Below, piece by piece: positions 22,416 through 35,400 of a stretch of 36,853 nucleotides of DNA; position 1 is the stretch's first letter; every line of letters begins with the position of its first letter. The stretch spans positions 1 through 36,853 of the forward strand of contig JAGXKM010000012.1 in assembly GCA_018335275.1 (NCBI GenBank). Direction: 5' to 3'. Below the pieces are notes generated by a model, which had not been told where the DNA came from, searched no databases, and saw nothing but the letters and a program-made list of their open reading frames with translations. Made by a program: the position numbers and the translations under genes. This DNA comes from Anaerolineales bacterium (lineage in GTDB: Bacteria > Chloroflexota > Anaerolineae > Anaerolineales > UBA11858).

Positions 22416-23300
22416 TCAGTCAGGAAGGAACACCGGACTCGAAATCTCCGGCGGCGAGGGGAGAACTTCCACATTGACCGGGGTGGCCACGACCACAACC
22501 CGGTGTGTGTTGCTTGGATACGGCCAGCAGGAAATCAGCGTCAACCGTTCATCTTCAGAAGGATGGATCCACCGGGCATTCGCCATCCTGACTTCGATGG
22601 GCTCCCAACGCTCCTTGAGGATGATCTTGTTGGCCACCACATAGCTATACTGAAAATGACCCGCCTGGAGGAGGATTTCGTCCCCATTCTTGAGTTTTTC
22701 CAGGTCCCGAAAAATCTCGCCGTAGCCGCTGCTGTGTCCGTTAATAACTGTGTTCCCCTCACGGCCAAGTTTCGCGGAGCCGCTGTGCCAACCCAAATCA
22801 CCGGAACGCGGGGCTAACCACTGCTGGTAAGTATCTCCCAGATATTCCACCTCACGTGAAGAAACAGGGACCACAAAAGCCTCGACCCCAAGAGAAGGGA
22901 TCATCAACCGTTCCGGTTCAGCGGCAGGGGTCCTGGATAAACTTTCAGGTAAGGCACTCCCCTGCTTGACCGGCGGATCCGCTGCTACCAACAAGGAGAA
23001 TTTCGCCGGCTCTCTGTTTATATTAACATCCGGAGCAGAAGTTGATTGATCATCCCCAGCAGGGGAGTACAAGGGTAAAAATTCATCATCTTGTCCTGGA
23101 GTAAGTACCTGGTCAGCCCGGTTAGAGGCCTCCTGCTGGCTTTTCTCTCGACCTTCCGTTACCCGGTCGAGGGGAGAGTGGATACGTCGATATTCCCGGG
23201 ATACATTCCTGACACCGAAAAAGACCATCACAAACCCCATCGCCATGATGAATACAGCATAAGGGGCCAAGCGCCCTTCCCGAATTCCAAAAGCTTTCAT
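22416..23300 (-). CDS. Sortase
   Basis: TM; NTVINGHSSGYGEIFRDLEKLKNGDEI and LTLISCWPYPSNTHRVVVVA catalytic His/Cys/Arg. Confidence 0.88.
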   Translation of the reverse strand: MKAFGIREGRLAPYAVFIMAMGFVMVFFGVRNVSREYRRIHSPLDRVTEGREKSQQEASNRADQVLTPGQDDEFLPLYSPAGDDQSTSAPDVNINREPAKFSLLVAADPPVKQGSALPESLSRTPAAEPERLMIPSLGVEAFVVPVSSREVEYLGDTYQQWLAPRSGDLGWHSGSAKLGREGNTVINGHSSGYGEIFRDLEKLKNGDEILLQAGHFQYSYVVANKIILKERWEPIEVRMANARWIHPSEDERLTLISCWPYPSNTHRVVVVATPVNVEVLPSPPEISSPVFLPD

Positions 23301-23314
23301 ATTTCTGAAGACCC

Positions 23315-24253
23315 TTATATTTCCCTCTTTTTCTGCAACAGCGAAACACCATGGAAAATCAAGCCCAAGCCAAACACCAACAAACCAGATTGGGCGCTGA
23401 TCCTAGATAAGAATGCCTGTTTTGTATCCACATCTGCTCCAGAAAAAGGTGCTTCACGTCCGGTTACAGGTATCAGCAATCCTTCATCATCGACCTCAGG
23501 GGGAGGAAGGGTGGATACTGGCGTCTGTGTCGGGTTTCCCACAGGGGTCGCTGTGGCTTCCGGGGTGCCGGTCGGTTCTTCAGGCGGGTCCGTCGGATCG
23601 GGCGTCGAGGTTGGGTTTTCAGGTGTGACCGTCGGTTCTGGAGTTTCCGTGGGATCCACCGGCGTGCTGGTCGGTTCCGGGGTTTCGGTTGGGTCCACGG
23701 GTGTGCTGGTCGGCTCCGGGGTCTCGGTGGGGTCTACAGGTGTGCTGGTCGGCTCCGAAGTTTCGGTGGGATCCACCGGTGTGCTGGTCAGCTCCGGAGT
23801 CTCGGTGGGAACAGGATCAATCACCACAATTTCCAGGTGGGAAATTTCCCGACAGGAACTAGGAGCATCCTCCAGATCCCACACCGTCACAGAATTTGTG
23901 CCTATCCCGCTCACACCATAACAGGTGCTGGTCCCGTCAGCAGTGAAAATCTGGGCACACTCTGTAGCCGCTTTAATGCCGACAACGGAAATATATCCAG
24001 GCCCTGTCAGTGTAAACTCCCACGGGGAGGTTTGGTCCTCCACCTTTAGGACCGTCCCCTCATATTCATCAAAGTTGCAGAAAATCCTCTCCTGCTGGTT
24101 CTCTGCCAGGGGTGGAGAAGCTCCCACGGGCACAATGCCCGCGCTGAGGGTCACAGCAAATGCGACCAGAATCGCACTCAACGCATAGAACAGTTTGGAC
24201 AAAGACCAAAAAATTCGGGAGACCTGTCCTTTCATTATCGCTTTTTTAAACAT
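23315..24253 (-). CDS. Cell-surface protein with Thr/Pro-rich repeat and C-terminal LPxTG-like sorting signal
   Basis: Signal-like N-terminus; PTETPEPTSTPVD repeats; C-terminus LLIPVTGRE...SGLLVFGLGLIFHGVSLLQKKREI. Confidence 0.85.
   Translation of the reverse strand: MFKKAIMKGQVSRIFWSLSKLFYALSAILVAFAVTLSAGIVPVGASPPLAENQQERIFCNFDEYEGTVLKVEDQTSPWEFTLTGPGYISVVGIKAATECAQIFTADGTSTCYGVSGIGTNSVTVWDLEDAPSSCREISHLEIVVIDPVPTETPELTSTPVDPTETSEPTSTPVDPTETPEPTSTPVDPTETPEPTSTPVDPTETPEPTVTPENPTSTPDPTDPPEEPTGTPEATATPVGNPTQTPVSTLPPPEVDDEGLLIPVTGREAPFSGADVDTKQAFLSRISAQSGLLVFGLGLIFHGVSLLQKKREI
23649..23804. repeat. 39-bp tandem repeat (about 4 clear copies plus degenerate flanks) encoding PTETPEPTSTPVD
   Basis: gtgggatccaccggcgtgctggtcggttccggggtttcg and near-identical following units read directly. 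Confidence 0.9.
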
Positions 24254-24774: not shown

Positions 24775-25230
24775 TTACTTTACCTGGATTTCAACCACGC
24801 CTTTCACCTGAACTTTCCCGGAGAAACCGGGCAGGACCATGCGGAGCTCGTCGCCGTCAAAGGCCACCACGCAGTCGCTGCAGCCTTCCAGGTCGCTGAG
24901 AGGGAGTTCTGCCTCATAGCCGTCTGAGGCCACGAACACGACAGCGGACGCATCCCCGCCCAGGCCCGCTTCTGAAAGAAGGTCATTGACAGGGGCACCG
25001 GTATAGGCTTCCGTCTCACCGTCTTTGCCAGTGTACTCCACGTCCACAGTCTCCATGCTCTGGAGATCATCCATGGACAGAGAGAATTCCTGGTCGACAG
25101 CGCCTGAAACCGTGAGGGCAGCATCCCCCCTTCCGCTCTCCGCGGGTTCTGGGGCCTCTTCACCACAACCCGCCAGGAGCAGGACAAATACTGCCAGGAC
25201 AGCAAGCAAGACAGGGATATGTTTCTTCAT
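24775..25230 (-). CDS. Lipoprotein with molybdopterin-binding-oxidoreductase-like domain
   Basis: Lipobox LLLAGCGE; LTVSGAVDQEFSLSMDDLQSMETV...GAPVNDLLSEAGLGGDASAVVFVASDGYEAELPLSDLEGCSDCVVAFDG. Confidence 0.75.
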   Translation of the reverse strand: MKKHIPVLLAVLAVFVLLLAGCGEEAPEPAESGRGDAALTVSGAVDQEFSLSMDDLQSMETVDVEYTGKDGETEAYTGAPVNDLLSEAGLGGDASAVVFVASDGYEAELPLSDLEGCSDCVVAFDGDELRMVLPGFSGKVQVKGVVEIQVK

Positions 25231-25258
25231 AAACCTCTCCTTCGCTATATCGCAATTC

Positions 25259-25735
25259 TTATTGATTAACTTGAATTTCCGTCAATTGAAAGACCCAGCG
25301 GTTGGCTGGGGTTTCCGGGGTGACCAGGCGAATGGGTCCTTTATCCGGGGTGGTGTTGGCAATCCAATCCTCATGATCTTTTAGAGCCACTATGGCGCTT
25401 TCCAACTCGTCCTCCGTGACCTCAATGGCGTACCCATCCGCGGCCAGGGCGGTGATGGTGGAAAACTCTCCGGCGCCGGCCTCATCGAGCAGCTCCGAGA
25501 GCTCCACACCGCTCCAGGACCGAATTTCATCTTCCCCGGTCGATTTTTCCATCAGGATCTCATCCAGACTGACCTGCTCCATCTTGGCCAGTTCTTTGTA
25601 AGTAAAGGTCGTGGGATCCTCCACATCTCCACTGATCGTAAGCTCCCAATCCACATTGGGCGCCCCGCCGCAGGCTGTCAAAAGCAACAGCAAGGCGGCC
25701 AGGATCAGGAACAGCGTACCTCTTCTTCTCTTCAT
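25259..25735 (-). CDS. Lipoprotein with molybdopterin-binding-oxidoreductase-like domain
   Basis: Lipobox LLLTACGG; WELTISGDVEDPTTFTYKELAKMEQV...WSGVELSELLDEAGAGEFSTITALAADGYAIEV...WVFQLTEIQV; start at MKRRRGTLF. Confidence 0.75.
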   Translation of the reverse strand: MKRRRGTLFLILAALLLLLTACGGAPNVDWELTISGDVEDPTTFTYKELAKMEQVSLDEILMEKSTGEDEIRSWSGVELSELLDEAGAGEFSTITALAADGYAIEVTEDELESAIVALKDHEDWIANTTPDKGPIRLVTPETPANRWVFQLTEIQVNQ

Positions 25736-25761
25736 ACCTTTCTCCTTTTTAAAAACAGCAC

Positions 25762-26904
25762 TTAATCTAAATACGTAATCCAAATCGGAATCAGCATGTC
25801 TCGTTCAATCAAATGCCCATGGTTTCCTGATCTCTCCTGTCCTTCAACGCGGTGCATACCGTGATCTGCAAAGATCACCACCAATGTATCGGGAGGCATC
25901 ATGCTCAGGATTCTCCCTACCGCCTGGTCCACCTCGCGGATCTTCTCCCCCTCTAAAGGCGCCCCTGGTCCCACTTCGTGCCCCAGATCATCAATGCCGT
26001 GGAAATGGACCAAGAAGAGGTCCGGCATTCCTCGTTCTAAAACGGAGAGGGCATGGGCCAGAACATTGTCATCCGTCCCCCCATCCCCATCCCGGTCTCC
26101 TGAGAGCTGGAAATCCGCTCCTTTGAGTTGAAAAGCCAGGGCTTCCCCCTCCACGGCCGAGACCCTCAGTCCTGCCTGCCGGGCAACCTCCAACAGGGTT
26201 TCGTGATCCGTTTTTCGGATCCCGCGCTTATCCACGCCGTGGACCGGGGGCTTCGCGCCAGTGAGCAGGGAAGCCGTGGACACTGTGGTGATAGGCGGGT
26301 AGGTGGTAACACCCACCAGGGGTGGGTCCAATTGGGCCAATTCCGGGATCAAGCCCGCCTCCAGGGCTTCTTCGTAACGCAAATACCCAAATCCATCCAA
26401 GAACAAAAGCAGAACCTGGTAAGCGGTCTGGTCGGTGAGAGAGCGGCCCGCAGCGATCTCGGGCGCCGGAATACCCAACGCGCTGGCTGCGCTGGGGGCA
26501 ATATCCGTGATCGAGGCCTCAATTCTTGACACCCAGGGAGATTGTTCAACGGCGATTGCCCTGGGATGGATTACCCGGTCATGTACAACAAGGGTCCCAT
26601 CCTCCTCCAGCCAGGTGCCTCCTGCGGTATCCGCCCAGGCGTAGGTGAGTTCTTCTCCATCCCGATCGGTAATCTGCAGTGTTTCAATCACCTGATAGCC
26701 GTGTCCGTACAATACCTTTTCCAGGGGAAACCCGCGTTCCCCGGCAAAGTCTGCATACGCCTTCCAGGTCCCATGGCTGAGTCGAATCTCTTCTCCCGCA
26801 GGGCCTTCCAGAGAAACGTCCCACTCTGAAGCGCATCCTCCCAGCATCAGGACGGTGATCAGAAATCCCCCGACCACGAAATCGCGAATCCTCTTAGCCA
26901 TCAT
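25762..26904 (-). CDS. Lipoprotein type I phosphodiesterase/nucleotide pyrophosphatase (alkaline phosphatase superfamily)
   Basis: Lipobox LMLGGCAS; LFLDGFGYLRY, ITTVSTASLLTGAKPPVHGV, HFHGIDDLGHEVGP, VIFADHGMH motifs. Confidence 0.83.
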   Translation of the reverse strand: MMAKRIRDFVVGGFLITVLMLGGCASEWDVSLEGPAGEEIRLSHGTWKAYADFAGERGFPLEKVLYGHGYQVIETLQITDRDGEELTYAWADTAGGTWLEEDGTLVVHDRVIHPRAIAVEQSPWVSRIEASITDIAPSAASALGIPAPEIAAGRSLTDQTAYQVLLLFLDGFGYLRYEEALEAGLIPELAQLDPPLVGVTTYPPITTVSTASLLTGAKPPVHGVDKRGIRKTDHETLLEVARQAGLRVSAVEGEALAFQLKGADFQLSGDRDGDGGTDDNVLAHALSVLERGMPDLFLVHFHGIDDLGHEVGPGAPLEGEKIREVDQAVGRILSMMPPDTLVVIFADHGMHRVEGQERSGNHGHLIERDMLIPIWITYLD

Positions 26905-27834
26905 TTACTCCGTTTTGATCTCGATAACATGCTCGATCCACTGCGACCGGCCCCGATCCGGAAACACCAACGTGACCCCGGAGGAAAGGGGTGACAATAC
27001 AGCGTTCTCGATGTCCTGAGCCTGAAACTCGTACGTTTCCTCGCTGCGGTCAGTGACGATCACCACTTCATAAGACTTACCTTCCAACAGGTCCGCGAGG
27101 GAGGCGCCCAGGATCCGCGAGGCTGTTTTCGCTTCGCGCACCTTTCCATCTTCCTCGCTGGCGTACATCACTTTGGCCTGCTCCACGGTCACTTCCCGGG
27201 TCGGCCCTAACAGCAAACGGCCTACGGACGTCTCCCGTTCCTGGATGGTCAGAGGACGCTCCCTGCCAACCACGATGATCCTGTTCAGCCCTTTCAACCA
27301 GGTGGAGACATGCAGGTCTTCGGAGGCAAACCGGACGCCGTCCGCGTACGGCATCAGCAGTGCACTCTGATTCAGATCCTCCTTTTGGATGGTGACCAAC
27401 CCCCCATCCCTTGACGTCATGGCCACCCGGTCAAAATCATCCACACCCTGCCGCTCCAATAATTCCAATAAGGGAAGGTGCGTGTTAGGGTGATCCTGAT
27501 AAGGGAGGACGTCATGGACCTCGATATATCCCGGATCAGGGACATCCCCCGTAAAGGCTATCAGGGCGTAGAAAGGAAGTTCCGCGAATTCCACCGCTCC
27601 ATGGTCATCATGGCAGTCCGAACAGCTATGATATGCTTCCGCTTCATGACACTCCGCGCACTCATTCATGGTCACCGCCTCTTCCCAGAGCATGCCTGCT
27701 GAATAGTGAGAGACCAAACCTACAGGCAGCCCATTCCTTCTGCCGGCTAAAAAGCAGCCCACGATGAGGAAAAGTGCACTGAAGAATAACCCGACACCCA
27801 TGATGATTTTTTTCCAGCGTTTTCCGTCGAACAT
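26905..27834 (-). CDS. Membrane-anchored protein with two CxxCH heme-binding motifs and two molybdopterin-binding-like domains
   Basis: N-terminal TM; NECAECHEAEAYHSCSDCHDDHG; start at MFDGKRWKK overlaps upstream stop as TGATG. Confidence 0.75.
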   Translation of the reverse strand: MFDGKRWKKIIMGVGLFFSALFLIVGCFLAGRRNGLPVGLVSHYSAGMLWEEAVTMNECAECHEAEAYHSCSDCHDDHGAVEFAELPFYALIAFTGDVPDPGYIEVHDVLPYQDHPNTHLPLLELLERQGVDDFDRVAMTSRDGGLVTIQKEDLNQSALLMPYADGVRFASEDLHVSTWLKGLNRIIVVGRERPLTIQERETSVGRLLLGPTREVTVEQAKVMYASEEDGKVREAKTASRILGASLADLLEGKSYEVVIVTDRSEETYEFQAQDIENAVLSPLSSGVTLVFPDRGRSQWIEHVIEIKTE

Positions 27835-28607
27835 CAACCCTCCCAAAATGTAACCATGACAGCACTTATCAATACAAAGACCAATCCTCCCGCAGCAACC
27901 CAATCCCACCGGGTCATCTCCCGCTTCCGGTAATATGTACGGGTGGGGTACCTACCGAAGCAGCGCCCCTCCATGGAAACGGAAAGGGCATCCACTTTGC
28001 TCATCGCTGAAACCAGCATAGGCAGCAAGAGTGTTCGCAAGTATTGAAGCAAACCGCGCAGGTTTTTGCGGTCATAAGTCGATCCGCGGACCAACTGAGC
28101 TCGATACACGGTCAAAGTTTCCTGCTCAAAAAGGGGAATTAAACGCAGGGCAGTCACCAGCGTGAAACCAAATCGGTAAGGCAGGCCAGCGCGCATCAAG
28201 GCATAAGCCAGTTCATTGGGAGACGTAGTAAGCACAAACAGATAACTCAAAAAGATCACTGCCAAAAAGCGGGAGGCCAGGTAGAGCCCCCGCTCGAGAC
28301 CATCTTGCGTTACCGCCACAGGACCGAGCTGCCCCAATACCGGGCCGCTGTCCACGAACAGGACCTGCAGCAGAGCGATCATCAGCGCCGAAATCCCCAG
28401 CACCTTCACACCGCGCAGTTCCCTGAATTTCAACCCCGCACTGGGAAACACAGCTAGCAGCAGCACTGTAAAGGAGGCATTGAGATATGGGTCCTGGAAC
28501 AAAAACACCAATACCGTCAGCGCCACCAGCCAGGCAAACTTCACCAGAGGATGATATCTGTGCAGAAAAGACCGTCCCGCCTGGTAAGCGATTTTCCGCT
28601 TCACCAC
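27834..28607 (-). CDS. ECF transporter T component (YkoC/EcfT-like)
   Basis: Multi-TM; FGFTLVTALRLIPLFEQETLTVYRAQLVRG and AMSKVDALSVSMEGRCFG typical EcfT motifs. Confidence 0.88.
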   Translation of the reverse strand: MVKRKIAYQAGRSFLHRYHPLVKFAWLVALTVLVFLFQDPYLNASFTVLLLAVFPSAGLKFRELRGVKVLGISALMIALLQVLFVDSGPVLGQLGPVAVTQDGLERGLYLASRFLAVIFLSYLFVLTTSPNELAYALMRAGLPYRFGFTLVTALRLIPLFEQETLTVYRAQLVRGSTYDRKNLRGLLQYLRTLLLPMLVSAMSKVDALSVSMEGRCFGRYPTRTYYRKREMTRWDWVAAGGLVFVLISAVMVTFWEG

Positions 28608-30061
28608 CCACCTCCAGGGAGATATGCATCCATGCCGATCCGGGCCAAGTCCTGCATAGCCTCCCGCAGCGGAGCGTCGACGACCAACTTTCCTCCCGCT
28701 AAAAAGAAGATCCGGGACACCACCTCGGGGTAATAAGCGGGATTGTGGTTGACCATGATCACGCTGCCTCCATTCTCCACAAATTCGCTTAACAAGGTCA
28801 ACAAAAACTCCGCGTTCTCACGATCCTGTCCGATGAAAATTTCGTCCAAAAGCAGCACGTCCGGCTTGTAGGACAGGACAGAGATCAAGTTCAAACGGCG
28901 TTTTTCCCCATAGCTTAACCGGTAAGGGTGTTCCTTCACGCGGTCTCCCAGGCCGGCCCGTTCCAAAAGGGACCGGGTAAATCCCGTAAATTCTGACTCC
29001 TCAAGTTTAAAATTCCGGGCTCCAAATACCGCCTCGTCCCAAACCGTGGAGGCGAATAACTGGTGGTCAGGATTCTGAAATACCAGTCCCACATTCTTCC
29101 CCAGCGTGGAGCTGGGAACTTGATCCACATTTTCACCCAAGACCCACACATCACCCGCGCTCTTTTCCACCAACCCCAACAAACTCAACAACAGCGTGCT
29201 CTTTCCGGATCCGTTATCCCCCATTAAGCTGACCCATTCCCCGGGCTCCAGGCGGAAGGAAATCTCCTTCAATACCGACTGGTTCTGATACCCCAAACGA
29301 AGGCGCTTGACCTCGAGGAGAGGGTGTTCAGTGCTCCCTTTAAAGGCGGGTTTTTTTACTTTAATCTCAGGGGCTGGATAAGTCTTTCGATCCGGTTCCA
29401 AAATACATCCCATCCCCATCTCAATGATCCGGGGCTTCACCCGGCTCAAAAAGTCCAATTTATGCTCAATGACCAGCACCGTGAGACCGGTCTCCCGCTG
29501 CAGATTTAAAATTACGTCAAAGATCTCCTCCGTGGAAGGAGGATCCAGGTTGGAGGTGGGTTCATCAAAGAGGATCACCTCCGGTTGGGAGGCCAGAATG
29601 GAGGCCAGGGCCACCTTTTGTTTTTCCCCTCCCGAGAGCGTTCCCAGGTCCCGACCCCGCAGGTGTTCTATGCCTGTCATCTCCAGCGACCAGGTCAGCA
29701 GACTGTCAATCTTCTCCCGGGTATATTTTCGATTTTCCAATCCAAATACGATCTCATCCTCCACTCTCAAGGTGCAAAATTGTGATTCCGGATTTTGCTG
29801 GACAAGTCCCACGACATCCGCGATCTGGTAGATGGATTTTTCCTGCACATCCATCCCTGCCACCGCCACCGTCCCCTCCACCTCCCCGTCAAACTGGGAA
29901 AACAGGACCCCGGCGACAGCCAGAGCCAGGGTGGACTTGCCGCAGCCGGATGGACCGGTGAGCAGGGTGAATTCCCCGGATGCAATTTCCAGATTGATGC
30001 TCTGGAGCGCGAAATCCTCTCTTCCTCTGTACCTGTAGCTGAAATCTTTCAGGCGGATCAT
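28601..30061 (-). CDS. ECF transporter ATPase with two fused ABC domains (YkoD-like)
   Basis: Walker A GPSGCGKST and GDNGSGKST; signatures LSGGEKQKVALAS and LSYGEKRRLNLIS; Walker B ILFDEPTS, LLLDEIFI. Confidence 0.93.
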   Translation of the reverse strand: MIRLKDFSYRYRGREDFALQSINLEIASGEFTLLTGPSGCGKSTLALAVAGVLFSQFDGEVEGTVAVAGMDVQEKSIYQIADVVGLVQQNPESQFCTLRVEDEIVFGLENRKYTREKIDSLLTWSLEMTGIEHLRGRDLGTLSGGEKQKVALASILASQPEVILFDEPTSNLDPPSTEEIFDVILNLQRETGLTVLVIEHKLDFLSRVKPRIIEMGMGCILEPDRKTYPAPEIKVKKPAFKGSTEHPLLEVKRLRLGYQNQSVLKEISFRLEPGEWVSLMGDNGSGKSTLLLSLLGLVEKSAGDVWVLGENVDQVPSSTLGKNVGLVFQNPDHQLFASTVWDEAVFGARNFKLEESEFTGFTRSLLERAGLGDRVKEHPYRLSYGEKRRLNLISVLSYKPDVLLLDEIFIGQDRENAEFLLTLLSEFVENGGSVIMVNHNPAYYPEVVSRIFFLAGGKLVVDAPLREAMQDLARIGMDAYLPGGGW

Positions 30062-31434
30062 CGGAGTTTGATAACCCCCACATCCAACAGGTACACCTCT
30101 CCATTCATGTGCCCTACAGCATAAGAGACAGCGCCCTCTTCAAGGACAACGAAGACCCGGATCCCCTCATCCGCTGCAATATCATCGACCGGCAGGGTGA
30201 CACCCCCATCCTCCACACCCACCAGTACTACCTCTTCAAAGGAATTTTCTTCCAAATGGGAAGAGAAAAGGGATTTCAAAGGTACCCCCTGATACTTGTT
30301 AGAACCATAACCCAGATCCAGTTGTGTGCTGTCCATCTCCTGGATCCAATCCCCGGGTTGAAATACCCGCGAATCCTTCCCTTCCACCTCCAAGACCAGA
30401 GGTGCAGATTCAACCAGCGTGATTTCCACCACCCCGTTCACCCAGGCCTTCTTCGTGGACGGTCCCACCATGTTGTAAACCAGATTCTTTCCACTTCCCT
30501 GGGTTTGTAATAGCAATCCCGGGTTTTCCTCTAACTCGGTTTGGGTGATAAAAAACTCATAGCCATCCGATGCCTGAAGCAGCACGAGGTCAAAACCGGG
30601 TTCCGGTCCGGCTTTTTGGAGGATCTCCTGCAGGAGAAAGCCCCGGTAGGACATGGACACATCTCCCTGGGAGACCTCCACAGTCTTTTCTTCAAGGTCG
30701 GTTTGTGCGGCGTTGAATTCGTAAGGGGTGGAAACGGCACCATTAACCGCCACTTCACCGGACCCTGATCGGGCGACCTTTAGATATCCGAAAAGGCTCA
30801 GCGCTAAGAGGAGGCTTCCCACAAAGAATACCCGCAGCAACCGCGGCCGCATCGGCTGCGGTTCCTGGTCCTTGACCACGCCGGATTCTCGCAAGGTATT
30901 AATCAGAGCATAGCCCAGTAAGCCCGCAAATATCACCCCGGAAAGGAAAGCCACCAAAGCGATCAAGCCGATCACACTGTAGGCCAGGACATCCGCGGGA
31001 ACCGCGGCAAAAAGTTGAAATACAAAGACATTGGAGGCGGAGGCAATTCCTCCAGCGACAGCGTAAGCCAGCCAATGGTGCCGCTTACGGAAAGCCAGGA
31101 GGCCCAGATCGACCAAGATCCCGGCGGCGATATCCACGAGCACCACCAATAGTCCATGGGTGTTCCCGGAGAAAAGTTCAACCGCCCCTTTCAGGACCCC
31201 GGTGATGGTTCCAGCGCCTTGCTTCTTGGTAAGCCCCGCGGCGAGGATCAACCACAGGACATGAAATCCCGCCGCCCACTGGGTTGTCCCCGCAAACCCC
31301 AGGATGGATTGGAAGAAATCCCCGATGAAGTTGATGTACGTGCTGGCAATCCCCCCCAGAGCAGCCAGGGCCGCCATCATCAATAAATCACGCGTGGAAT
31401 AATAATAAAGATCTCGGCTCATCATGTAGGGCAC
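30058..31434 (-). CDS. ECF transporter S component (YkoE-like) fused to two C-terminal molybdopterin-binding-like domains
   Basis: N-terminal about 5-6 TM YkoE-like region (TRDLLMMAALAALGGIASTYINFIGDFFQSILGFAGTTQW...), then two repeats with DGYEFFITQTELE / DGGVTLPVDDI motifs. Confidence 0.8.
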   Translation of the reverse strand: MPYMMSRDLYYYSTRDLLMMAALAALGGIASTYINFIGDFFQSILGFAGTTQWAAGFHVLWLILAAGLTKKQGAGTITGVLKGAVELFSGNTHGLLVVLVDIAAGILVDLGLLAFRKRHHWLAYAVAGGIASASNVFVFQLFAAVPADVLAYSVIGLIALVAFLSGVIFAGLLGYALINTLRESGVVKDQEPQPMRPRLLRVFFVGSLLLALSLFGYLKVARSGSGEVAVNGAVSTPYEFNAAQTDLEEKTVEVSQGDVSMSYRGFLLQEILQKAGPEPGFDLVLLQASDGYEFFITQTELEENPGLLLQTQGSGKNLVYNMVGPSTKKAWVNGVVEITLVESAPLVLEVEGKDSRVFQPGDWIQEMDSTQLDLGYGSNKYQGVPLKSLFSSHLEENSFEEVVLVGVEDGGVTLPVDDIAADEGIRVFVVLEEGAVSYAVGHMNGEVYLLDVGVIKLR

Positions 31435-31473
31435 CCCGAATCATTCTCTCACTCAAAAGTATTTAATCAGAAA

Positions 31474-31492
31474 CTATTTAGTTTGTAAATAG
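31474..31492. promoter_or_regulatory. Perfect inverted repeat CTATTTA-N5-TAAATAG, candidate operator
   Basis: CTATTTAGTTTGTAAATAG in the PadR / ECF S-component intergenic gap. Confidence 0.5.
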
Positions 31493-31548
31493 GTATATAA
31501 AAAAACACATCTCAATCCCAATTCCCGTCATGTCCCCTGTAAAGTCCG

Positions 31549-32088
31549 TCAGGCAAACCTTTCCAGATAAGTGTCCAGCCAGGCATTGATAAAGGACGCC
31601 TGGCGAATGCGAAACTCATACACCTCCTTGAGAAAAGGGTCCGATTCCCCCTCTTGATCCTCAGCCCACTCCTGGATCATGTCCTGGAACACCTTCTGCT
31701 GAGCGTGGATCAAATCCTCTACCCGGGGGAGGTCCAGGAGATTGAAAAACCGCAGTTTGGCGATCAGTTCCACGCGCACAGCGCGCATGGAGGGGACAGG
31801 TGATCTGACCCAGGACAGGAACTCTTGACGCCCCTGATCGGTGAGGTGATATACCTTGCGGTCGGGCCGGTTTTCCTGCGGCTCCAATTCGGAACCCAAA
31901 AGGCCTGCTTCTTCCAGTCGGGAAAGGGTGACATAGAGTTTCGTCTGGCCCGCTTTCCAGATCATCTGGAAGTCCTCTTCCAGCGTTTGATCGAGCTGGT
32001 ATCCATGGTCAGGGCCTTTCATCAGCAGCCCCAGCGCCAGGTAGCGCAGCGGGTAGGTTCCAAAACCGGGGCTTTTTTTTGCACTCAT
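31549..32088 (-). CDS. PadR family transcriptional regulator
   Basis: LRYLALGLLMKGPDHGYQLDQTLEEDFQMIWKAGQTKLYVTLSRLEEAGLLGSE wHTH and PadR C-terminal region. Confidence 0.92.
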   Translation of the reverse strand: MSAKKSPGFGTYPLRYLALGLLMKGPDHGYQLDQTLEEDFQMIWKAGQTKLYVTLSRLEEAGLLGSELEPQENRPDRKVYHLTDQGRQEFLSWVRSPVPSMRAVRVELIAKLRFFNLLDLPRVEDLIHAQQKVFQDMIQEWAEDQEGESDPFLKEVYEFRIRQASFINAWLDTYLERFA

Positions 32089-32338: not shown

Positions 32339-32950
32339 CTACCCTTCCGAAGGGCCAACCATCTCCCGCAATTCCTTAAAGGCCGTGGCTGGTTCTTTGG
32401 ATTGAAGGAAGGAAAGGATCTCCGCTGCCCCTTCTTCCGGGCTGAGTGAGGAGGTATCCAATTCCAGATCGTAAATGGCTTGAGCGTGAACCTCCTCAAA
32501 TTGTTTCCGCGCCATGCCTTCTTTCCGGTTACCACGGTTCCGCTCGCGTCTCTCAAGTTCCTCCACAGGGCAATGAATGCCGACGAAGATCACTTCCAGG
32601 CCTTCAAACAAAGACAGGACACTCTCCACCCAGGGCGGGTCAGATTCCAGTACATCATCCATGATCACCAGGTTCCCGGCACGGGCCACGGCCGCCCCTG
32701 CAGCATGAAAGCCCCGGATGATCCGTGGCCACGTCCTGCGGACGATATCCTCCCGCTCCCACAACCCATCCTGGTACGCTGCCAGATACTCATCAATACA
32801 GAGATGAAAACAGGGTTCCTCCATGACCGCCTGCAAGGCGCGGGCGATGGAACTTTTGCCGGCACTGGAGGCGCCGTTGAGAAAGATGATTTTTCCGTCC
32901 ATCAACTCCGGACTCCTATCCTGATGCTTGCCTCTATACCCTTTCTTCAT
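32339..32950 (-). CDS. Chloramphenicol phosphotransferase-like P-loop kinase
   Basis: IIFLNGASSAGKSSIARALQ P-loop; CIDEYL; CPT-family layout; true start may be 32902 (MDGKIIFLNG). Confidence 0.8.
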   Translation of the reverse strand: MKKGYRGKHQDRSPELMDGKIIFLNGASSAGKSSIARALQAVMEEPCFHLCIDEYLAAYQDGLWEREDIVRRTWPRIIRGFHAAGAAVARAGNLVIMDDVLESDPPWVESVLSLFEGLEVIFVGIHCPVEELERRERNRGNRKEGMARKQFEEVHAQAIYDLELDTSSLSPEEGAAEILSFLQSKEPATAFKELREMVGPSEG

Positions 32951-33527: not shown

Positions 33528-34277
33528 ATGAAATTACAGACAGGCGATCGAGCGCCAGACTTCACACTTATGAGTCATCTGGATAAGAAGGTGACCCTGG
33601 AGGAGTTCAGGGGCCAGACGGTGGTGCTGGCTTTCTTCCCCCAGGCTTTCACCCCCGTTTGAACGGCTCAAATTCCGTCTTATGAAGCCGAATACGCTTC
33701 ATTCGCGGAATTAAATGTCCAGGTTCTGGGCATCAGCGTTGATCACATCCCCGTTTTGAAAGCCTGGGCGGAAGACATAGGCGGCGTTTCGTTTCCACTC
33801 TTGAGTGACTTCTGGCCCCACGGCGAGGTGATCAAAAAATACCACGTGTTCAGGAAAGCGGACGGTTATTCTGAAAGGGCAATCTTCATCATCGATAAAG
33901 AGGGGATCATCCGCTACATCGACGTCCATGACATTGATGACCAACCCAGTAATGAGGTCCTTTTTGAGGAGATCAAACGCATCCAGCCCGAAGTTCAGCC
34001 TGCTGTTTCCGATAATAAAGAGGGACAAGAAGATAAGCTGCAGCTGGATGGGGTGATGCTGTTTTGCAATCAGTGGTGCCCGGGCTGCCGCAGAGCCCGC
34101 ATCTGGCTGGCGAAGCACAACATCGATTACATAGAAGTCGATGTCAGCCGAAACCCGCAGGCAGCTGCCCAGGTCAAGGAATGGACAGGGGGCAATTTGA
34201 CTACACCGACGTTTTACATCCATGGAGAAGTGGTCATTGACTGGAAGGAGAGAGAGGTCGCCCGTTTGCTGCTCTAG
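33528..34277 (+). CDS. Selenocysteine-containing peroxiredoxin fused to glutaredoxin (TGA at 33660-33662 read as Sec45)
   Basis: MKLQTGDRAPDFTLMSHLDKKVTLEEFRGQTVVLAFFPQAFTPV-U-TAQIPSYEAEYASFAELNVQVLGISVDHIPVLKAWAEDIGG...; PxxxTxxU Prx motif; C-terminal CNQWCPGCRRARIWL...TTPTFYIHG glutaredoxin; GGAG RBS before ATG. Confidence 0.88.
33660..33690 (+). promoter_or_regulatory. Candidate bacterial SECIS element following the in-frame UGA
   Basis: CGGCU (33664-33668) pairs with AGCCG (33686-33690); inner CA/UG and AA/UU pairs; loop UUCCGUC with G15 after UGA. Confidence 0.55.
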
Positions 34278-34343: not shown

Positions 34344-35400
34344 GATTCAAGTACCAACTGCAACAGCACTTGATTTGAAGAACACCATTTCTGGTGTCAT
34401 GATATCGAGACACTTTCTTGGCCTGGTGTTTAGCCGGTTTTTCGCAAACTGTGTATCTTCATCCGTGATCTTTGAAAAATCACTTCCCTTCGGAAAATAC
34501 TGGCGGACCAGCCCATTTGTGTTCTCGTTGGTTCCTCTCTCCCAAGAGGCATAGGCATGGGCAAAATAAACATCAGTATCCAGCTCTTCAGCAATCTCTT
34601 GATGATCAGCGAATTCCTTCCCGTTGTCACAGGTAATGGTCAGCGTTTTTGTAGGATATGGCTTCAACATTTGAACAATTGCATTCTTAGCAGCTTCAGC
34701 TGTGCGGTTGTCGATTTTCTTCAATAAGGTGAAGCGTGACTTCCGTTCAACCAGGGTAACTAACGCATATGAATTTTTCTTCCCAAGCATGGTATCAGCT
34801 TCCCAATCTCCCAGACGTTTTCTCTCCTCAACCACGGCTGGACGCTCTTCGATACTCACTCTGTCGGGTATTTTCCCTCGACGATCGTTACTTCCGTACC
34901 GTTTTCGGCGCTTTTTCTGGCACCGCAGATGTTTGTGCAGCTTGCCGCCAGCTCTCTTGTCCGCGTAGATATACAGGTAAATCCATTCATGACTGACGCT
35001 GTCATCTCTGTGCTCGTTCATCCAGAGCGTAATTTGTTCCGGGCTCCAATCCTCCCGGATCTTTTCCTCGATCCAGGACCACGTTTGGGGCTGGATACGC
35101 TTCTGATTCTGCTTGCGTCTGCTCGTCGCTTTACGATGGGCTTGTTTGGGACGATATCCACGCTTCCCTTTGTTTCTTTTCAGCTCACGACTGATGGTCG
35201 ATTTATGGACGCCGATGGCTTCAGCGATTTCTGTTTGGGTTTTGCCACTTTTCAAAAGTACCTTAATCTGATATCGTTGACACTGGGTAAGCTGTTTGTA
35301 GGTCACGAATGCTCCTTTAGTTTAGTCGCTGGAGAGGTATTCTATCCTACTACAGCTTACCTCTTTTTACGACACCAAAGTTGCAGTTCGTAGTTGAATC
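34344..35400 (-). mobile_element. IS30-family insertion sequence
   Basis: IRL GATTCAAGTACCAACTGCAAC (34344-34364) vs reverse complement of IRR GATTCAACTACGAACTGCAAC (35380-35400), 19/21 identical; encloses an IS30-type transposase. Confidence 0.9.
34347..35306 (-). CDS. IS30 family transposase
   Basis: MTYKQLTQCQRYQIKVLLKSGKTQTEIAEAIGVHKSTISRELKRN HTH; DWEADTMLGK, CDNGKEFADH, NENTNGLVRQYFPKG DDE motifs. Confidence 0.95.
   Translation of the reverse strand: MTYKQLTQCQRYQIKVLLKSGKTQTEIAEAIGVHKSTISRELKRNKGKRGYRPKQAHRKATSRRKQNQKRIQPQTWSWIEEKIREDWSPEQITLWMNEHRDDSVSHEWIYLYIYADKRAGGKLHKHLRCQKKRRKRYGSNDRRGKIPDRVSIEERPAVVEERKRLGDWEADTMLGKKNSYALVTLVERKSRFTLLKKIDNRTAEAAKNAIVQMLKPYPTKTLTITCDNGKEFADHQEIAEELDTDVYFAHAYASWERGTNENTNGLVRQYFPKGSDFSKITDEDTQFAKNRLNTRPRKCLDIMTPEMVFFKSSAVAVGT

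Follow-up and report, generated by a model that had tools for sequence, protein, structure and literature searches.

Which substrate is taken up by an importer whose membrane component, lipoproteins and partner proteins carry copies of one surface domain? The question is raised by an operon on contig JAGXKM010000012.1 of an Anaerolineales bacterium (assembly GCA_018335275.1); the whole stretch analysed, 36,853 nucleotides, is referred to as the window. The operon is likely a group I energy-coupling factor (ECF) importer for the molybdenum/tungsten cofactor (Moco or W-cofactor) or for its organic part, molybdopterin. We also lean slightly towards regarding it as the first dedicated cellular importer of this cofactor, with the finished cofactor used as a vitamin that is captured at the surface, trimmed and delivered to tungsten enzymes in cells without the biosynthesis genes. 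A pterin or Mo/W cofactor was chosen as substrate because fold, sequence, riboswitch context, gene neighbours and the loss of Moco genes agree.

The following features were assigned in the window:

31549..32088, minus strand: PadR-family regulator (PF03551, 6e-19, Pfam)
31474..31492, minus strand: candidate PadR operator between padR and the S gene (sequence reading and alignment)
30058..31434, minus strand: ECF S component, YkoE type (PF09819, 7.5e-17)
30406..30765, minus strand: S component surface domain 1 (profile matches to LP1, LP2 and S domain 2)
30061..30405, minus strand: S component surface domain 2 (profile match to LP2, 2e-8, and alignment)
28601..30061, minus strand: ECF ATPase with two fused ABC domains, A-A' (TIGR04520, 330 bits, over cut-off, two stretches)
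27834..28607, minus strand: ECF T component, CbiQ family (PF02361, 1.2e-32)
26905..27834, minus strand: membrane-anchored CxxCH protein, putative c-type cytochrome with two surface domains (AlphaFold2 and Foldseek)
27610..27660, minus strand: two CxxCH motifs, CAECH and CSDCHDDHG (sequence and alignment)
25762..26904, minus strand: lipoprotein with a probable N-terminal surface-type domain and a type I phosphodiesterase/nucleotide pyrophosphatase (PF01663, 2e-18)
25259..25735, minus strand: lipoprotein LP1, one Cys-less sulfite oxidase (SUOX)/PruR-type domain (PF00174, 8.7e-12)
24775..25230, minus strand: lipoprotein LP2, one SUOX/PruR-type domain with conserved CxxC (PF00174, 2e-12)

Eight open reading frames (ORFs), all on the minus strand, were found in an ORF check: padR and seven further genes. 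The S stop (30058) overlaps the A start (30061), the A stop (28601) overlaps the T start (28607), and a TGATG lies at 27834. The gene set, shared direction and overlaps given in a preliminary description of this DNA were borne out by this check and by Pfam/NCBIfam matches; the start of LP1 was corrected to the ATG at 25735. S, T and two ABC ATPase domains are encoded together, which is the make-up of a group I ECF transporter, and are kept in relatives.

Surface domain, S component and partner proteins

A recurring pattern had been noticed in the S component, the CxxCH protein and the lipoproteins, and had been likened to the sulfite oxidase-type domain. By profile-profile comparison, six copies (S domains 1 and 2, CxxCH-protein domains 1 and 2, LP1 and LP2) were linked as one homologous domain. 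Most domain pairs gave E-values of 6e-5 to 4e-18 and the two weakest about 0.002, versus 0.04-0.65 for unrelated controls; the S domain 1 profile matched LP1 at 6e-15, LP2 at 1e-14 and S domain 2 at 8e-15. The N-terminus of the phosphodiesterase, tentatively listed before as a further copy, is a probable seventh one by sequence. Its weaker profile links to CxxCH domain 1 (3e-5), S domain 2 (8e-5) and LP1 (2e-4) favour the assignment, and no link to S domain 1 was obtained (E 0.04).

The sulfite oxidase likeness held in three comparisons: PF00174 matches, Foldseek matches to the SUOX family and PruR, and a search of the PDB with the lipoprotein profile (top sequence match PruR 7KOS, 7.6e-8, sulfite dehydrogenases next). 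For the fold check, AlphaFold2 models of the S component and the CxxCH protein were submitted to Foldseek, and a SUOX-type fold was found rather than unrelated folds. The CxxCH-protein model (predicted local distance difference test score, pLDDT, 81.7) matched PruR 7KOU/7KOS best (5e-4) and also sulfite dehydrogenase 2BLF; matches of both models included the PruR neopterin complex 7RKB. As modelled, the repeated domain is thus of sulfite oxidase-type fold.

Sulfite oxidase and YedY (PF00174) are related to LP1 by domain homology, but LP1 has a shorter domain, lacks the Mo-ligating Cys and is likely without catalysis. In the window the lipobox Cys is the sole Cys of LP1, and in 10 of 11 sequences the only cysteines were that of the lipobox and one further upstream in the signal peptide; because of this LP1 would be unable to ligate molybdenum in the sulfite oxidase manner. 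The cysteines of LP2 are those of a distal CxxC only, so that the Cys ligand of PF00174 molybdenum oxidoreductases was found in neither lipoprotein. PruR (7KOS, 7RKB) is closer. It is likewise an exported protein of about one Cys-less SUOX-type domain, and the copies studied here combine this fold with the absence of a Mo-ligating Cys and with export by lipobox or transmembrane (TM) anchor. PruR is a periplasmic pterin-binding protein which binds small reduced pterins and acts as a sensor partner (PMC13259868). It differs in being a soluble partner of the cyclic di-GMP (c-di-GMP) enzyme DcpA, whereas here the domain is present six to seven times on an importer, with a pterin as putative ligand.

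The S component consists of six TM helices, a seventh TM helix connecting to the surface domains, and two extracellular PruR/SUOX-type domains, the second of which is missing from Bacillota and archaeal homologues in the alignment. Its model (pLDDT 85.8) matched YkoE 5EDL in Foldseek (E 1e-6, TM 0.74) as well as sulfite dehydrogenases and PruR, and the S profile matched 5EDL at 3.9e-17. The YkoE fold is kept by the transmembrane part and, with the PF09819 match, confirms the earlier YkoE-like call. The binding site is changed. W49 is replaced by His and D131 by Gln in 34/34 aligned S sequences, E77 is kept, and in the window Q95 and Y46 are both Ala; the thiamine-specific set (Y46, W49, E77, Q95, D131) is therefore not present. 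W49 is required for thiamine binding by YkoE (PMC5037267).

These residues bear on a thiamine or hydroxymethylpyrimidine (HMP) importer like Bacillus subtilis YkoEDC, with the pyrophosphatase cutting thiamine diphosphate outside the cell. Membership in PF09819 and the match to 5EDL speak for such a system, and YkoEDC, a group I ECF thiamine transporter, shares S, A-A' and T genes in one operon as well as S family and fold. It lacks the replacements at W49 and D131, the extra TM helix and the one or two extracellular domains on S, the partner lipoproteins, the phosphodiesterase, the CxxCH protein and the Moco riboswitch of relatives. No thiamine pyrophosphate riboswitch was found before the operon in the loci scanned; a Moco riboswitch is found there instead. 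Thiamine, earlier given as an example of the substrate, is thus disfavoured, and a thiamine importer was rejected on the site residues as very improbable.

The CxxCH protein had no family match in Pfam or NCBIfam and no PDB sequence match, and was placed by fold search only. The second CxxCH motif is present in 22/22 aligned sequences and the first in 16/22, making the protein a putative c-type cytochrome. The motifs, and the existence of ECF heme importers (PMC7299338), would suit a heme importer in which this protein hands over heme. The surface proteins encoded in the window showed no heme-binding domain family, and the pterin-type fold, the Moco riboswitches and the context of aldehyde:ferredoxin oxidoreductase (AOR), Tup and Moa genes point elsewhere; a heme importer was rejected as unsupported and is exceedingly improbable.

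For the phosphodiesterase, residues invariant in 16 sequences include D170, T206, D305 and H309. In comparison with nucleotide pyrophosphatase/phosphodiesterase (NPP) chains, the invariants agree with the metal ligands and the nucleophile of that family, and the D and H of ADHGMH and NHGH are present in the window protein. In Bacillota and one Asgard locus the same slot is filled by a calcineurin-type phosphoesterase. The slot is thus occupied by two unrelated families, which was counted in favour of cofactor import.

Recurrence, riboswitches and gene neighbours

The neighbourhood survey of homologues proposed earlier was carried out. The same gene order was found in genome G006, in G045 (another family of the order) and in many further Anaerolineae; the gene set recurs, and chance proximity is excluded. 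With a CxxCH-protein profile, 22 of 397 genomes of the class were matched, 21 convincingly; the weak match in G393 (45 residues) was left out of the count. In a phylum-wide sample 4 of 399 genomes were matched, all from the order of the window, and no carriers outside the class were seen in this sample. Contig searches with the single S protein returned no relatives, and with the S alignment 79 loci.

The core order is S, A, T, an HdrD-like Fe-S protein in some loci, CxxCH protein, phosphodiesterase and lipoproteins. By the S-alignment search, an S component with one surface domain, together with A and T, occurs in Syntrophomonas, Pelotomaculum, Thermovorax subterraneus, Bipolaricaulota/Acetothermia, Thermoplasmata and Asgard archaea. 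More distant S homologues were found in Phycisphaerae.

The Moco riboswitch family RF01055 lies directly before the operon in 19/19 Anaerolineae loci scanned outside the genus of the window, at 59-79 bits (cut-off 36 bits). S is the first gene after it, except in L078 with one small ORF between. In Bacillota, RF01055 precedes S (L127), TupA-TupA-S (L125) and phosphoesterase-lipoprotein-S-A operons (L128, L130, L137, L154). Further copies were seen before separate surface-domain genes in L099, L109, L125 and L127. Compared with the Escherichia coli moaA RNA, most of these RNAs are shortened where the P3 hairpin should sit; RNAs without P3 have been proposed as tungsten-cofactor sensors (PMC2408646).

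In the genus of the window only, the position of the riboswitch is occupied by padR, which has the same place in the two congeneric loci L012 and L013. An inverted repeat, CTATTTA-CAAAC-TAAATAG, lies at 31474..31492 and is partly conserved in the two congeners. PadR probably switches the operon in this genus.

Other genes behind these riboswitches were recorded. A small protein ending in CQLGCF, without Pfam/NCBIfam match, is encoded between the Moco riboswitch and S (L043:13931-14395). Secreted proteins of 1700 amino acids (aa) follow a Moco riboswitch at L125:13811-19050 and L127:13712-18882 and carry PKD and Shr-like heme-interacting domains (Pfam matches seen in L125). In Syntrophomonas wolfei, 'sulphite oxidase' genes controlled by Moco riboswitches of the tungsten type, which lack P3, were listed as exceptions in 2008 (PMC2408646); they probably belong to the Cys-less domain family described here.

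Also considered was a pterin-using redox or sensing complex at the cell surface, in the manner of PruR and DcpA, with the ECF transporter included incidentally. The role of PruR as a sensor partner (PMC13259868) and the HdrD-like protein and cytochrome of some operons fit such a complex. It is nonetheless quite improbable: the S-A-T genes are the part of the operon that stays constant, a partner of the DcpA type was not recognised, and riboswitch feedback suits a nutrient-supply operon.

Tungstate and molybdate genes are frequent neighbours. In L043 (G118) the genes after the operon encode a TupB-like permease, an ABC ATPase, a TupA fusion and MoaA; in L049 (G183) a single stretch holds the ECF genes together with Tup-type genes, a TupA fusion, WtpA and the CxxCH protein. 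The TupA proteins with a C-terminal PruR/SUOX-type domain are at L043:2931-4220 and L049:9958-11292. In Pelotomaculum, S-A-T follow ModABC in L127 (MoeA further up) and in L125 (which also has two TupA genes); in the Bacillota locus L123, MobB comes after the ATPase gene. A 603-aa lipoprotein with several surface domains (L015:8164-9975, G033) is followed by a substrate-binding protein, a TupB-like permease and a WtpC-like ATPase.

From these neighbours, and from the fusion of TupA to the domain, it may be argued that the ECF transporter itself imports the tungstate or molybdate oxyanion and that the PruR-like domains serve as auxiliary sensors or scavengers; Moco riboswitches control oxyanion transporters too (PMC2408646). 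We consider this unlikely. Dedicated oxyanion transporters are present alongside, S resembles the vitamin-binding YkoE, six to seven pterin-type domains and a nucleotide pyrophosphatase would be senseless for an oxyanion, and nine carriers without MoaA, MoaC, MoaE and MoeA could not use the imported metal. TupABC, WtpABC and ModABC share the W/Mo nutrient and the neighbourhood, and TupA sometimes the domain, but are classical ABC oxyanion importers unrelated to ECF S components.

Downstream of the importer operon, on the same strand and beyond a second ECF operon, three Brevefilum-type genomes carry an AOR gene accompanied by HdrA/MvhD-like genes. AOR is part of a large HdrA/MvhD/Hdr-like electron-transfer operon at L058:231-9026 (G045), L059:5360-15191 (G318) and L060:8235-18019 (G415), and these genomes are without moaA, moaC, moaE and moeA. 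The second ECF operon (L058, L059, L060) is headed by a squalene-cyclase-like surface protein. A cobalamin riboswitch near its start (L092:15727-15864, L101:15710-15848, L060:1806-1944) was also recorded, and this second operon probably encodes a B12 importer.

Small APH/RIO-like kinases are encoded near the ECF genes in Bacillota and archaea (L125:12461-13153, L123:10549-11226, L118:6564-7304, L144:6838-7620), in several of these loci near T; a salvage kinase is possible. In the window, a gene for a chloramphenicol-phosphotransferase-like small kinase (32339-32950; PF07931, 1e-48) adjoins padR. Further ORFs of the window are a glutaredoxin domain fused to an AhpC/TSA C-terminal part (33756-34277) and, by eye, an IS30-like transposase (34347-35306) and a sortase-like protein adjoining a proline/threonine-repeat surface protein (22416-24253).

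Cofactor biosynthesis genes in carriers

The 21 carriers were checked for AOR, MoaA, MoaC, MoaE and MoeA. Known members of the AOR family use a tungsten-pterin cofactor, and the family was found in 21/21. Nine of the 21 (G045, G318, G415, G133, G157, G191, G102, G322, G379) are without MoaA, MoaC, MoaE and MoeA and thus combine Mo/W enzymes with absent cofactor synthesis, as proposed for users of an importer; of these, the G045 assembly (9 contigs) has a completeness of 97%. MoeA has been kept in the window genome and in G006, with MoaA, MoaC and MoaE missing. Across the class sample of 397 genomes, 11/21 carriers have no MoaC versus 45/376 other genomes (p=2e-5), and among high-quality genomes the counts are 8/10 versus 24/223 (p=2e-6). 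By S-profile search, S was found in three more MoaC-less AOR genomes (G244, G256, G305) earlier counted as non-carriers; these were kept out of the statistics because the search was targeted at MoaC-less genomes and a few others.

The state of MoeA bears on which form is imported. A metal-free pterin (cyclic pyranopterin monophosphate (cPMP), molybdopterin, dephospho-molybdopterin or another reduced pterin) may be taken up and the metal inserted inside, which we regard as a tentative possibility; import of molybdopterin is a sub-case of the preferred explanation. Such uptake fits the binding of small reduced pterins by PruR (PMC13259868), the window genome and G006 with MoeA and without MoaA, MoaC and MoaE, and the APH-type kinases beside the operon in Bacillota and archaea, which could re-phosphorylate the pterin. 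The nine MoeA-less carriers stand against it and should need metallated cofactor, because they have no known metal-insertion route; cPMP would in addition depend on MoaD/MoaE, of which MoaE is absent. For carriers that have MoeA, molybdopterin could suffice.

Several points weigh against import of the cofactor. Free Moco is labile (PMC9370521), and the PruR site is probably too small for Moco according to a 2026 review (PMC13259868). No RF01055 was found in the window, where the Rfam scan was empty, in its two congeners, or in the archaeal, Acetothermia and Phycisphaerae loci scanned. The MoaC association is weaker when stratified by family (p=0.015). AOR is present in 27/45 MoaC-less non-carriers, the three with a later S match included; on this count the rule that only carriers have AOR without MoaC was rejected. 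G002, G003 and G005, of the genus of the window and 86-91% complete, have AOR and lack MoaA, MoaC and MoaE, yet no S gene was found in them. About half of the carriers retain moa genes, and uptake would therefore be supplementary there. Gene absences were read from draft genomes.

Proposed route and relation to known systems

For cofactor import, the following route is proposed. The PruR/SUOX-type domains of the lipoproteins, the cytochrome and the S component would hold the pterin outside the membrane. There the phosphodiesterase would cleave nucleotide or phosphate from forms such as molybdopterin guanine or cytosine dinucleotide (MGD/MCD). The putative c-type cytochrome might, as a guess, keep the dithiolene/pterin reduced, and could be fed by the HdrD-like membrane Fe-S protein in some relatives. 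The S component would then bind the trimmed cofactor, import would be driven by the A-A'-T module, and the imported cofactor would supply tungsten enzymes of the AOR family. In kinase-bearing loci re-phosphorylation may take place inside the cell, which is likewise a guess. The operon would be switched by the Moco/W-cofactor riboswitch in most Anaerolineae and probably by PadR in the genus of the window. Surface capture and phosphodiesterase trimming of a nucleotide-bearing pterin cofactor, first suggested in the preliminary description, agree well with this context; the substrate itself we infer.

In the prevailing view, every cell that needs Moco makes its own, since the cofactor in free form would be too unstable for exchange between cells; the only exception reported is Caenorhabditis elegans (PMC9793310). 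In the literature searched, no importer for a Mo/W cofactor was found for any organism, and no report of a bacterial Moco importer was found in the open part of it, subscription papers being outside reach. Exogenous Moco is used by C. elegans, which takes up protein-bound Moco from its diet; this is an animal, and the transport route is unknown (PMC9793310, PMC9370521). According to one paper, nobody had looked for or seen uptake of exogenous Moco outside C. elegans (PMC9793310). ECF uptake of a large cofactor is known from the heme importer LhaSTA and from cobalamin importers, which have other S components and no pterin-type domains; heme S components share little sequence (PMC7299338). As a transporter, the system described here belongs to the known ECF kind; its surface apparatus is new, and so, probably, is its substrate class.

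If this reading is true, Moco or W-cofactor would be a shared nutrient in anaerobic communities, with a bacterial and perhaps archaeal importer. The existence of some AOR-bearing genomes without moa genes would be explained, which might bear on the growing of such anaerobes, and a transporter with its binding proteins would become available for cofactor-delivery tests.

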